Assembly: GCA_020718225.1 (NCBI GenBank)
Contig: DYSO01000013.1
Coordinates: forward strand, 1-33,054
Source of the DNA: Draconibacterium orientale
Lineage (GTDB): Bacteria; Bacteroidota; Bacteroidia; Bacteroidales; FEN-979
Direction: 5' to 3'
Length of the DNA stretch: 33,054 bases
In this document: positions 7,078-10,998 of the stretch, one piece after another
Numbering within the stretch: the stretch's first letter is position 1
Layout: each line of letters begins with the position of its first letter
Position numbers and translations under genes: made by a program
The notes under the pieces: model-generated
The model's database searches: none
Seen by the model: only the letters and a program-made list of their open reading frames with translations
Told to the model about the DNA's origin: nothing

Positions 7078-7995
7078 ATGGCAAAAGCAAAAACCAACCC
7101 CATTGTAACTTCTAAACCTTCAAAACTGGTAAAACCTGTCACCGGAAAAGAGACCGCCGGCGAACCCCTGCCAAAGGAAACAGAACAGGAAGTTATCGAA
7201 AAAACAAAACCGGTAAAAGTTTCGGGTAATACCAAGATAGAACTAAATGAGGAGAAAGCCGAAGTTACCATTGAAAAAAAACTGATCGCCTTATATAGCT
7301 TGCAACAACTTGATTCACAGGTTGATAAAATTAAAATCATCCGGGGTGAACTGCCACTGGAAGTGCAGGACCTGGAAGATGAAATAGCCGGATTGGAAAC
7401 CCGCATCGATAATTATATCCAGGAAACTTTAACCTTTGAGAAATCAATCCAGGAAAAGAAAAACGCCATCAGGGATGCCCTGGCGCTGATAAAAAAGTAT
7501 GAAGACCAGCAAATGAATGTGCGTAATAACCGGGAGTATGATTCTTTGACCAAGGAGATTGAGTACCAGAATTTGGAAATTCAGCTGTCTGAAAAGCGGA
7601 TCAAAGAATACCAGGCAGGTCTTGAAGGGAAATCGGAGGAAATAGAACGGTATCAAAAATTGTTACTTGACAAAAAAACCGATCTGGATATCAAACGCAA
7701 TGAACTGGATGATATCATTGCTGAAACTGAAAAAGAGGAAAATGAACTTACCAGGGCTTCCGAAGAAAACCGTCGGTTCATCGAAGAACGCCTCCTCACT
7801 GCCTACACACGTATTCGTAAAAATGCAAGAAATGGCCTGGCCGTAGTTCAGATTGAACGCGATGCCTGCGGAGGATGCTTCAATAAAATCCCCCCTCAGC
7901 ATCAGCTCGATATCCGTATGCATAAAAAAATTATTGTATGTGAGTATTGTGGCCGTATCCTCGTGGATGATGGCATTGTGAATGCCATTCATTGA
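7078..7995 (+). CDS. Coiled-coil protein with C-terminal C4 zinc ribbon (DUF164/CT398 type)
   Basis: The 305-residue product has a Lys/Pro/Thr-rich N-terminal extension (about 1-60), a long charged coiled coil (about 70-255), and a C-terminal zinc ribbon with Cys264-x2-Cys267 and Cys288-x2-Cys291 (CGGC and CEYC). The motif NNREYDSLTKEIEYQ inside the coil is typical of the family. These proteins are cytoplasmic and thought to bind nucleic acid or act as adaptors; the exact role is unknown. The start at 7078 (MAKAKTNP) lies 10 bp after the NIF3 stop; a longer in-frame reading would overlap NIF3 and is not needed. The stop overlaps the next gene's start as TGATG. The basic N-terminal tail is longer than I would expect for the family. 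Confidence 0.9.
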   Translation: MAKAKTNPIVTSKPSKLVKPVTGKETAGEPLPKETEQEVIEKTKPVKVSGNTKIELNEEKAEVTIEKKLIALYSLQQLDSQVDKIKIIRGELPLEVQDLEDEIAGLETRIDNYIQETLTFEKSIQEKKNAIRDALALIKKYEDQQMNVRNNREYDSLTKEIEYQNLEIQLSEKRIKEYQAGLEGKSEEIERYQKLLLDKKTDLDIKRNELDDIIAETEKEENELTRASEENRRFIEERLLTAYTRIRKNARNGLAVVQIERDACGGCFNKIPPQHQLDIRMHKKIIVCEYCGRILVDDGIVNAIH

Positions 7996-9530
7996 TGGTT
8001 GCACGCTGTAACGGAAAAAATGCGCCCCTGATCAGACTGATACTGATAACGGGCGCATTTTTTTTATCTGTATCCTTTGTCAGCGCCCAGTATGTTTTTA
8101 ACGATCGTTGCAGAGAAGCCTATCGCAATATTTTTTCTCTCAGGTTTCAGGAAGCTGAAAGCATATTGGAAATCGAAAGAAAATTAAACCCGTCCAATCT
8201 CCTTCCGGTCTATCTGGAAAATTACATCGATTTTTTAACCCTTTATATCGGAGAGGAACGTCGTGTATTGAACCAGCTTGTGCCCAATAAATCCATCAGG
8301 ATCAGACAGTTGGAAAAGGGGCTAAAAGACTCTCCCTATTCCGGTTACTGTCTGGCCGAAATCTATCTCCAATGGGCATTCATTCGGATGAAATTTGGGG
8401 ATTTCACCCTGGCTGCCCTCGATATCCGCAATGCCCACCGTCTGTTTACCGAAAATGATACCCGTTTCCCCGGGTTTCTGCCAAATAAAACAGGGCTGGG
8501 TATCATTCATATCATTATGGGACTGGTACCCGAAAATTATCATTGGATCAAAGATATATTGGGGATGAAAGGGACGGTTTCTCAGGGTTTGGCTGAGCTT
8601 CGCCTGGTAGGGACCTATTCCGGCCAGGATCCATCTTTTCTTCTTCTGAGGCCGGAAGCTTCATTTTATCTGGCTTTGATGGCCGCAAATCTTCACAGAA
8701 GCAAACCGGAAACCCTTTTACTGCTCAACAGACTTAATGACCAGGCAAAGGCAGAACAACTCGAATTAAGCCCACTGATAATTTTTGCCCGTTCCAATAT
8801 TCTGTTGAAATATGGTTTTACGGATGAGGCTTTGAAAATATTGCAGAAACGTTCGTTTCGTACACATGACTATCCTTTTTATTACCTGGACTATCTGGAA
8901 GGTTTGGCCCGTTTGAACCAACTCGATTTGGGGGCATCCAGATTATTTCACCAATATATTGGAAATTTTCATGGACAAAATTATCTTCTTGCAGCCCGTC
9001 AGAAGATTGCCTGGATTTCACTGATCAAAGGCGATACCGCTGGATACAAGCATCAGATGGGATTGATCAAAACCGGTGGGGCGCTTTTAGTGGATGAAGA
9101 TAAACAGGCTTTACATGAAGCAAAAGCAGGGATCATACCCGGGGTGTCCCTTTTACGCGCACGTTTGCTGTTTGATGGGGGTTATTACAGCCAGGCTATT
9201 AAAGAATTAACCGATAAACCTGTGAAAAGTTATATTCATACCCGCCGCGACTTTCTCGAATATACATACCGGTTGGGAAGGATATACCATGAATTGGGAG
9301 ATTACAGCAAGGCGGTCGATGCTTATAAACAGACCATTCAGAGAGGGAAAAATGAACCTTTTTATTTCAGTTGTTCTGCTGCATTGCAGCTTGGGCTCAT
9401 GTATGAAAGTCAAGGTCATTTGGCGCAGGCCGACAGCGCTTTTCGGGTTTGTTTATCCATTGATACCCCGGAATACAAAACCAGCCTCAGCCAGAAGGCC
9501 AAAGCTGGTTTGAACAGGCTCAAAAAATAA
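7995..9530 (+). CDS. Secreted or periplasmic tetratricopeptide-repeat protein
   Basis: The 511-residue product has a signal peptide (hydrophobic core about 13-28, probable cleavage after VSA-31). Helical TPR-like repeats follow across most of the length. The clearest are near the C-terminus: YRLGRIYHELGDYSKAVDAY and LQLGLMYESQGHLAQADSAF. TPR proteins are protein-protein interaction scaffolds; the partner is unknown. The ATG at 7995 shares its A with the preceding TGA, implying translational coupling; a TTG one codon earlier is also possible. Codons 7-23 form a strong terminator-like hairpin (separate entry), which may make this gene's expression lower than or conditional on that of the genes before it. 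It converges with the FadL-like gene, leaving 4 bp. Confidence 0.88.
   Translation: MVARCNGKNAPLIRLILITGAFFLSVSFVSAQYVFNDRCREAYRNIFSLRFQEAESILEIERKLNPSNLLPVYLENYIDFLTLYIGEERRVLNQLVPNKSIRIRQLEKGLKDSPYSGYCLAEIYLQWAFIRMKFGDFTLAALDIRNAHRLFTENDTRFPGFLPNKTGLGIIHIIMGLVPENYHWIKDILGMKGTVSQGLAELRLVGTYSGQDPSFLLLRPEASFYLALMAANLHRSKPETLLLLNRLNDQAKAEQLELSPLIIFARSNILLKYGFTDEALKILQKRSFRTHDYPFYYLDYLEGLARLNQLDLGASRLFHQYIGNFHGQNYLLAARQKIAWISLIKGDTAGYKHQMGLIKTGGALLVDEDKQALHEAKAGIIPGVSLLRARLLFDGGYYSQAIKELTDKPVKSYIHTRRDFLEYTYRLGRIYHELGDYSKAVDAYKQTIQRGKNEPFYFSCSAALQLGLMYESQGHLAQADSAFRVCLSIDTPEYKTSLSQKAKAGLNRLKK
8015..8065 (+). terminator. Intrinsic-terminator-like hairpin inside the TPR gene's signal-peptide codons
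   Basis: AAAAAATGCGCCC at 8015-8027 is perfectly complementary to GGGCGCATTTTTT at 8051-8063, and the run of T continues to 8065 (eight T in total). The stem is 13 bp with six G:C pairs and the loop is 23 nt. The loop itself holds CTGAT three times (8028, 8037, 8043) and the palindrome CTGATCAG. It starts 19 nt after the zinc-ribbon stop codon but lies within the coding sequence of the next gene. It could act as an internal terminator, attenuator or mRNA-stability element. Confidence 0.6.
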
Positions 9531-9534
9531 CAAC

Positions 9535-10998
9535 TCAGAATCTAAAACCAAGCGTGGTTAAAACGGTGTGTGTATAATTGTTAATATGGGTGGGGTTCAC
9601 CATATCGGCGTCGTATAAATAGTAATCCTGGGCCATTTTTGACCACACATAAGTCACATCTGCAAAAAAGTGGCGCGACCTGTAACCGAATCCACCGGAT
9701 GCCTGGAACCGTTCACTGTTGTTGCTTCCCGTTACGTATGGGTTGCTGAAATAGGCAAAGCCGCCCCGAAACCTGAAATTCGATAAGCGCCATTCTGTTC
9801 CGAGTCGCAGGTTTCCCCAAGATTGGTAGGTTGATTTGATCGCATTATTTACATCGGTATAGCTGTCAAACTGTGAATTAAAACGCGACTGTGAATAATC
9901 AACATACTCATAATCAGCGCTAAAAAGGCCAGCGGATCCAATGATGAAGGCCACGCTGCCCATGGCCCGAAATGGGGTTGTTAAACGGTAATCGTAGTTG
10001 CCAATGGGAGAATAAGCAGTAGCATTCCATTGTGTAACGGTAAAATTGGATTGCATGCTGCTGAACCATTCGTCGTGCATGCTGGGAAACCATGTCGGGG
10101 TATGTATGGCCGCACCTATCCTCACCCAGGAAGCGGGTTTGTATATCAACCCGAATTTAACATTCATACCGGTGCCCTGGGTTTGCAGGTTGTACCTGTA
10201 ATTAAGGGAAATAAAATTTGGGATGGTATCTTGTGTCCGTACCTCCTGGTAGCTGCTGGTTTCATAATAGCGTATTGTAGGAACGCCAAAGGTTAGCCCG
10301 AAATACAGTTGATCATTAAAATTCCCTCCCATGGAAAGTTCCAGTTCATTCATGGAGCCGGAGGTGGAAATGGTTTTACTTTGTGAAACGCCGCCATATT
10401 TTGCATCGCAATAATACTGTTGCGGGGCGCTGTCGAAGGCAACAAGATTGGTTGCATAAGCCAAGCCGATGTCAAAAGGATAATCGTCCCGAACATACTC
10501 AGGGGGGACACCTTTGGTATTAAGTTCATCAACATAGCTTTGCATCATGGAATTCCGGGTATTGATACCGGAAATGAACACCTGGTTATTGAAGTCGTTT
10601 TGCCGGTTAAATCCGAAACCTATGTTAAAAGCTTTAAATTTCCCCTGATTTCCTCTGCCGGACGGGTTAACATTAATGATAAAACCAAAATTGCCCAAGC
10701 CAAAATTCACCTCGTCGGCCGATGTGTTGGTACCGTTGTAGGTGGCAGTTGAATGGGTGATGATGGGTGCAAAGGTAAAGGTCATTTCCGATGCCTTATA
10801 TAGGCCGATTCCTGCCGGATTGGTGCCAAGTGTTGAAAAATCAGCGCCAACTGCCCCAAAGGCGCCACTCAATCCATTAAAGCGGGCAGTCCCGTTATAA
10901 TATACTCTTGAGTAACGGAGGGCATCTTCGGCGGTTTGACCGAGGGTGGAAGACACTGCCAGCCAGATCGATGATAATATGATGATTGTTTTTTTCAT
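9535..10998 (-). CDS. FadL/OmpP1-family outer-membrane porin (often annotated hemin receptor in Bacteroidota)
   Basis: The 487-residue product has a signal peptide (MKKTIIILSSIWLAVSSTLGQ). Next is the typical Bacteroidota FadL-like opening: ALRYSRVYYNGTARFNGLSG (about 26-45), with GAFGAVGADFSTLGTNPAGIGLYK right after it. Many alternating amphipathic strands follow, and the last one ends in LGFRF with terminal Phe, the barrel-insertion signal. FadL-type proteins carry hydrophobic compounds across the outer membrane; the substrate cannot be read from the sequence. The gene lies 41 bp after the lipoprotein gene on the same strand and may be co-transcribed with it. It converges with the TPR gene. 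Confidence 0.88.
   Translation of the reverse strand: MKKTIIILSSIWLAVSSTLGQTAEDALRYSRVYYNGTARFNGLSGAFGAVGADFSTLGTNPAGIGLYKASEMTFTFAPIITHSTATYNGTNTSADEVNFGLGNFGFIINVNPSGRGNQGKFKAFNIGFGFNRQNDFNNQVFISGINTRNSMMQSYVDELNTKGVPPEYVRDDYPFDIGLAYATNLVAFDSAPQQYYCDAKYGGVSQSKTISTSGSMNELELSMGGNFNDQLYFGLTFGVPTIRYYETSSYQEVRTQDTIPNFISLNYRYNLQTQGTGMNVKFGLIYKPASWVRIGAAIHTPTWFPSMHDEWFSSMQSNFTVTQWNATAYSPIGNYDYRLTTPFRAMGSVAFIIGSAGLFSADYEYVDYSQSRFNSQFDSYTDVNNAIKSTYQSWGNLRLGTEWRLSNFRFRGGFAYFSNPYVTGSNNSERFQASGGFGYRSRHFFADVTYVWSKMAQDYYLYDADMVNPTHINNYTHTVLTTLGFRF

Follow-up and report, generated by a model that had tools for sequence, protein, structure and literature searches.

The question raised by this locus is why a hairpin resembling an intrinsic terminator lies within the first codons of a gene, and whether evolution has kept the RNA structure, the encoded peptide or both. 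The window, i.e. the whole stretch of 33,054 nucleotides analysed here (Draconibacterium orientale, contig DYSO01000013.1), harbours a conserved trio on the + strand: a DUF34/NIF3 gene (PF01784; 5973-7067), a gene for a C4 Zn-ribbon protein (PF02591, Zn_ribbon_9; 7078-7995, with the start taken at 7078 and the ORF open further upstream) and a gene for a secreted TPR protein of 511 aa (7995-9530). The Zn-ribbon stop codon (7993-7995) and the TPR ATG (7995-7997) overlap by 1 nt in a TGATG motif (7993-7997, + strand), a possible site of termination-reinitiation. The hairpin (8015-8063, + strand) follows 19 nt after the stop and is formed by codons 7-23 of the TPR gene. As the preliminary description had it, a perfect 13-bp stem (8015-8027/8051-8063) encloses a 23-nt loop in which CTGAT is present three times. 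The 5' arm reads AAAAAATGCGCCC and the 3' arm GGGCGCATTTTTT, with 6 G-C pairs, and the stem reaches 15 bp when two G-U pairs at 8013-8014/8064-8065 are counted; RNA folding places a second short helix within the ‘loop’. The eight T said to come after the stem do form a run (8058-8065, + strand), but six of them are the 3' arm itself.

The hairpin is not a product of chance, since the fold of 8005-8070 (-26.5 kcal/mol) has a z of -6.3 and 0 of 200 shuffles were equally good. We scanned both strands of 411,922 bases from this genome, made up of the window and the initial parts of 40 further contigs, for hairpins of the same grade (a minimum of 10 perfect Watson-Crick pairs, 4 G-C pairs and 7 T of 8). 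Five were found. Two of them lie inside ORFs of at least 120 aa on the same strand, and only the hairpin of the window is near the 5' end of its ORF (23 nt in, versus 596 nt). The other lies at 19758-19797 of L191, 596 nt into a 244-aa ORF. A pattern-based terminator scan did not list the hairpin of the window because it permits loops of at most 8 nt. In Rfam 15, the interval 7500-8600 gave 10 matches at E up to 10, all far under the gathering score. A dispersed repeat was rejected as well: the hairpin pattern occurs at a single place in the genome, and a covariance model run with stricter filters over 43 genomes of the family on either strand found only this operon at E <1e-5, the best match outside it having an E of 2.7e-4.

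The stem lies wholly inside the codons of the TPR signal peptide (MVARCNGKNAPLIRLILITGAFFLSVSFVSA, with cleavage judged by eye). Counting from 7995, the first 45 codons hold a single in-frame ATG, GTG or TTG, namely the ATG at 7995 itself (an ORF listing also counts a TTG just before it). Any start further downstream would therefore lose the signal peptide, as had been claimed earlier, and the hairpin is truly coding.

In the family of the window, TPR protein matches were found in 39 of 43 genomes, including a weak repeat match (G024) and a 27% relative (G040), and Zn-ribbon matches in 40 of 43; no TPR relative was found in plasmid records. The family set comprised the 36 loci with both genes, one a genome (L002-L031 and L033-L038). 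Excluded were L032, a second copy in genome G026, and L039-L044, i.e. TPR relatives of 25-28% identity with no Zn-ribbon match. In G026 the operon is present in two near-identical copies (L003 and L032), on two contigs of one assembly.

The stop and start codons overlap as TGATG or TAATG in 32 of the 36 loci and as TAGTG in one. The signal peptides of 33 of the 36 fit one 14-codon pattern, the stem being formed by the codons at its two ends; this spacing is partly imposed, as the pattern used for these 33 loci fixes it and the block of L030 was set by hand. L029 and L038 are without the block. With G-U counted, 31 of the 34 block loci keep 8 or all 9 basal pairs, L012 keeps 7, and in L030 the pairing is lost. 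The codon block starts at a median of 23 nt past the Zn-ribbon stop in these 34 loci and at exactly this distance in 30, so shortly after a stop codon, as in intrinsic terminators. Two loci enter the frame differently. In L005 (1483-1548) the hairpin is kept with its 5' arm read one base out of the usual register, encoding K-G-T-C, and the frame may be entered at an in-frame ATG that still belongs to the Zn-ribbon gene, 13 nt short of where its stop codon ends, or at a TTG at the hairpin edge; a covariance model built without L005 recovered it at E 2.4e-7. L020 has no start overlapping the Zn-ribbon stop, and its only in-frame start is a GTG at the edge of the hairpin.

The hairpin goes when the TPR gene goes. 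Three family genomes have the Zn-ribbon gene without a TPR orthologue (L045, L046 and L047), and no such hairpin follows the Zn-ribbon stop; the Zn-ribbon gene can therefore do without it. In L048, the Zn-ribbon gene is followed by a TPR remnant in which the base pairs of the hairpin have, by eye, decayed; the inverted repeat found downstream of it is unrelated. In L046 and L047 at least, the sequence past the Zn-ribbon stop looks, by eye, like the end of a convergent gene.

Selection on the structure was examined in a gapless alignment of 66 nt and 33 loci (A1), from which L005, with its shifted register, L029 and L038 were left out. Its 9-bp basal helix is paired in 96.3% of cells, versus 25.9-60.6% on sliding the partner by 1-3 columns; shuffled alignments had a mean of 76.2%, and 0 of 500 reached the observed value. 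Two-sided changes occur in eight of the nine basal pairs, a number reached by 1 of 500 shuffles. RNAalifold returned, unprompted, the same basal helix together with the inner helix, in which two of four pairs likewise show two-sided changes among the relatives. In the common register, wobble positions of one arm lie opposite those of the other, and at one such wobble-wobble pair, i.e. columns 18-48 (codons 2 and 12), the combinations are AU in 15 loci, GC in nine, CG in seven, UA in one and another in one.

These changes were also counted by parsimony on a protein tree (quick method) of the Zn-ribbon and TPR proteins, the latter minus its N-terminal 39 residues. Columns 18-48 changed nine times on one side, eight on the other and nine jointly, compared with 11-18 jointly for eight non-partner wobble pairs; hence nearly all changes at this pair coincide. 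The other two basal wobble-wobble pairs (5 and 8 changes, 10 jointly; 10 and 7, 12 jointly) are less clean and appear hardly better than the best non-partner pairs. The amino acids of the arms change together too (P-G, L-S, L-N, R/W-W, and A-A to I-I), the arm peptides being K-A-P/G-A-F, K-I-P/G-I-F (L003), K-A-L/N-A-F or K-A-R/W-A-F, so that the RNA element constrains which amino acids the signal peptide contains.

It could be argued that the codons of such a peptide are complementary by coincidence (AAG GCA CC ... GG TGC CTT for K-A-P ... G-A-F), with the RNA itself unselected. Indeed, the codons for K, A and P are partly complementary to those for G, A and F by the code, and a null of synonymous codons already forms some stem. 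This null (400 resamplings per locus, loci with a lost hairpin counted) is nevertheless exceeded in most loci, with a stem z >2 in 22 of 36 (mean 2.43) and an MFE z <-2 in 23 of 36. Together with the four pair types at columns 18-48, complementary in 32 of 33 loci, and the co-changing amino acids of the two arms, this makes coincidence extremely improbable. Because the sequences are related, the values from the alignment and from resampling are not to be multiplied. As pairing is kept and the paired sides change together, the RNA structure is selected beyond the protein; pairing and the encoded export signal are both kept in evolution. The preliminary description had taken the hairpin to be both coding and regulatory, which is strongly supported: a lack of conserved pairing, which it had named as a refutation, was not observed, as relatives preserve the pairing by compensatory changes, several of them at wobble positions.

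What the structure might do is suggested by loci outside the family. Many Zn-ribbon/TPR pairs, whether from the order's other families or from named Bacteroidota records, have an ordinary terminator after the Zn-ribbon gene, with the TPR gene starting past it, e.g. the intergenic terminator AAAAAAGAGGAGTTC/GAACTCCTCTTTTTT of L054. By a rule of at least 6 T of 8, 48 outside loci have a terminator before an ATG and three before a GTG or TTG (51 loci), while 13 with both genes close together have none; one further locus is unclear, in two the genes are far apart, 29 are without a Zn-ribbon match in the stretch taken and 27 are duplicates. The same rule calls eight of the 36 family loci free of a terminator, though L005 and L015-L017 have the hairpin. 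In the 51 loci the hairpin begins at a median of 21 nt past the Zn-ribbon stop, and in 38 the TPR start lies at most 40 nt past the hairpin. In the order search, 117 of 344 genomes gave a match, in many cases a weak one, and the 30 loci that it gave were examined along with 40 more. The class search matched 132 of 395 genomes, and its 30 loci, one being that of the window, were examined. By eye, the other 29 comprise 21 with a terminator before the start, one with an absorbed terminator (L234), one unclear (L229), two without a terminator and four without a Zn-ribbon match.

In the family, the TPR start codon precedes the hairpin, which makes the terminator coding. The simplest account, in which the direction of change is inferred from the distribution, is that the terminator stayed in place while the start codon of the TPR gene shifted upstream past it. 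A single origin, in the ancestor shared by all of the family except L038, is compatible with the tree, but a tree of this type cannot separate gain from loss. We therefore consider the hairpin to be probably an intrinsic and presumably leaky terminator of the nif3 - Zn-ribbon unit that has been overprinted by the TPR gene, leaving TPR expression to read-through. The window has the features expected of such a terminator, i.e. a stable hairpin containing G+C pairs and, directly after it, a U-rich tract with eight T.

The strength of this tract varies among relatives. With a score of the d'Aubenton-Carafa type, 15 of 34 family hairpins score >0, with a median of -2.6, against 44 of 51 intergenic hairpins with a median of 20.1; the window itself scores 23.2. 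Family U-tracts are often broken by a CTG codon (TTTCTGCTTTTT), and T enrichment beyond what the amino acids dictate is modest and not specific to the tract (z 3.55 in codons 14-18 and 2.68 in codons 19-24). In contrast, the hairpins are more stable in the family (median -19.7 kcal/mol) than between genes (-11.5). The proposal that the hairpin makes the operon polar is plausible and supported by its position and from the terminators at the same place in other families, but many relatives have mediocre U-tracts.

This shift from classic terminators towards stable stems and weak tracts would also fit another role of the RNA, i.e. protection of the 3' end, a site of RNase cleavage that separates the Zn-ribbon and TPR mRNAs, or tuning of TPR translation just past the initiating ribosome. 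Since start and stop codons overlap, the 23-nt distance of the block in 30 of 34 loci is at the same time a fixed distance from the start codon. In L020 and L005, however, the hairpin keeps its distance from the Zn-ribbon stop despite the displaced starts, and outside the family ordinary terminators occupy the same position. We regard them as possible but rather doubtful.

The motif TAnnTTTG is the -7 box of Bacteroidetes. A TPR promoter of its own in the 3' end of the Zn-ribbon gene was rejected, as TAnnTTTG occurs in 0 of 36 loci in the 120 nt before the Zn-ribbon stop, and a looser form in six of 36. Read-through therefore seems the likeliest source of TPR mRNA, other promoter types being possible. 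Outside the family, TAnnTTTG is found between terminator and TPR gene in 8 of 51 loci and TAnnTTTV in 31 of 51. Because a U-tract is by its nature similar to this motif, these uncontrolled counts do not lend themselves to interpretation.

Whether ribosomes would interfere with termination can be approached from E. coli. In one study (PMC4824070), terminators placed within the first 100 bp of a coding region remain largely efficient, the presence of a start codon 30 bp ahead of the terminator lowers efficiency by about 10%, and a distance of >27 nt between stop and terminator gives the full effect, with two constructs at 17 and 18 nt reaching a termination of 0.12 and about 0.8. Based on these data, a hairpin with a U-tract about 20 nt past the stop would be expected to terminate, if only partially.

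The same data bear on an attenuator controlled by ribosomes, in which those reinitiating at TGATG would invade the hairpin and allow read-through, so that TPR expression would report translation. The overlap of stop and start (TGATG, TAATG or TAGTG) in 33 of 36 loci agrees with such control, as does the 19-nt distance from stop to hairpin in the window, which is near the 17-18 nt of the two E. coli constructs whose termination differed so widely (PMC4824070). However, no alternative antiterminator pairing was detected in 30 aligned loci from -111 to +80, where the 5' arm pairs with its own 3' arm with a probability of at least 0.97. The codons before the hairpin vary and contain no run of a single amino acid (by eye), and in place of the short leader ORF with regulatory codons of leader-peptide attenuators there is an ORF of 511 aa. 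The effect of only about 10% that an AUG 30 bp before an E. coli terminator had (PMC4824070) also argues against it. We therefore judge such an attenuator unlikely, and the earlier suggestion that ribosomes hold the hairpin open is not supported, given the lack of antiterminator pairing from -111 to +80 and that small effect of translation. Of note, Bacteroidetes are reported to initiate and reinitiate translation without making use of Shine-Dalgarno motifs (PMC6728339), so the efficiency of reinitiation at this locus is not predictable from such motifs.

In this family the TPR gene starts before the hairpin, in most loci at a codon that overlaps the Zn-ribbon stop, and an overprinted terminator would thereby belong to the signal-peptide codons (K/N-A-x ... 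x-A-F). Polymerase stopping at the U-tract would yield the nif3 - Zn-ribbon mRNA, and polymerase reading through would yield TPR mRNA, with read-through setting a low ratio of TPR to Zn-ribbon. As the terminated mRNA would carry the TPR start codon but no stop, ribosomes initiating there would reach the end of the message and have to be rescued. Of the 43 family genomes, 40 have SmpB. As for tmRNA in the genome of the window, the sole match (26.3 bits, against an Rfam cut-off of 47) is a tRNA-Ala and was rejected.

The upstream operon's terminator doubles as the attenuator of the next gene in the frd terminator/ampC attenuator of E. coli, where, unlike here, it lies outside the downstream coding sequence. 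Terminators within coding regions are also already known: brfA and arfA, bmrB, an engineered tR2 and RNA 3' ends reported inside E. coli ORFs (PMC7815308). The coding-region terminator of brfA in B. subtilis makes a non-stop mRNA, and in brfA as in arfA of E. coli the same bases are coding and terminator (both as described in PMC6881298), as would be the case here, where a terminator-like hairpin also lies inside an ORF upstream of its stop codon. However, the terminator of brfA and arfA is described there as near the 3' end, with the truncated protein as the product and control by trans-translation (PMC6881298), in contrast to a terminator at the 5' end, from which truncation would leave only part of a signal peptide. 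The engineered tR2 of E. coli is similar in that the terminator comes soon after the start codon, a non-stop mRNA results and termination mostly survives translation, but it is an artificial arrangement in a short ORF (PMC4824070), whereas the present one is natural, conserved across a family and located in the signal peptide of a 511-aa protein. In the ribosome-mediated attenuator of bmrB-bmrCD in B. subtilis, a coding-region terminator limits downstream expression, yet it involves a short leader ORF with a predicted antiterminator and anti-antiterminator (PMC4191407), as opposed to a full-length secreted protein for which no antiterminator was found. Among the matches listed in the literature search (titles and abstract openings), there was no report of a terminator in the signal-peptide codons of a downstream gene that is kept by compensatory changes.

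Since a coding-region terminator would make a non-stop mRNA, one would expect predictions of this kind to be silent or spurious. The present case is natural, strong evolutionary evidence indicates that its structure matters, and it lies at the 5' end of a long gene and has intergenic counterparts for comparison. It could serve as a clean system for studying how ribosomes, TGATG termination-reinitiation and RNA polymerase share one stretch of RNA. If its terminator has indeed been absorbed, the same bases of DNA would specify both where a transcript ends and the signal by which the following protein is exported. In the window, the TPR gene ends at 9530 and a convergent gene on the - strand ends at 9535 (region 9527-9540); no + strand terminator was found between the two ends by the pattern scan, which misses loops >8, and TPR read-through transcripts would therefore run antisense into the convergent gene.

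It is tempting to speculate, with considerable reserve, that intrinsic terminators have been absorbed for good into the codons for the following gene's signal peptide, several times around this one operon in Bacteroidia and related Bacteroidota, being kept in one family as two sets of codons co-evolved, and that routine non-stop mRNAs, cleared by ribosome rescue, help to keep the secreted TPR protein low. By inspection, similar cases exist in a few other lineages, and absorption may thus have occurred more than once. Seven outside loci were flagged as absorbed or possibly so (L092, L108, L157 and L162; L159, L160 and L163), of which L162 and L163, with 7-bp stems, were not counted. In L092 (family f95), a 12-bp stem and T8 fall inside MIRLIKYWILKKEHLLFLFLFFIMQPLFS, and in L234 (f157) a 15-bp stem falls inside MTAIHNNIHKRLLATAAKSLFVF; the absorbed stem of L108 (f27) is small, with 7 bp. 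In L157 and L160, both from Chitinophaga records, the whole stem is coding if a TTG is the start, while from the first ATG the start codon falls in the 3' arm; L159 is like them, with a TTG or GTG start. Enough sequences for a covariation test were available in the family of the window only: for L092, which belongs to the family of G237, there is one other family genome, whose locus is without a terminator by the rule. In L216-L221 (family f123), the TPR ATG lies about 10 nt past the hairpin and the frame is open back into the 3' arm, an arrangement that is a possible intermediate towards absorption.
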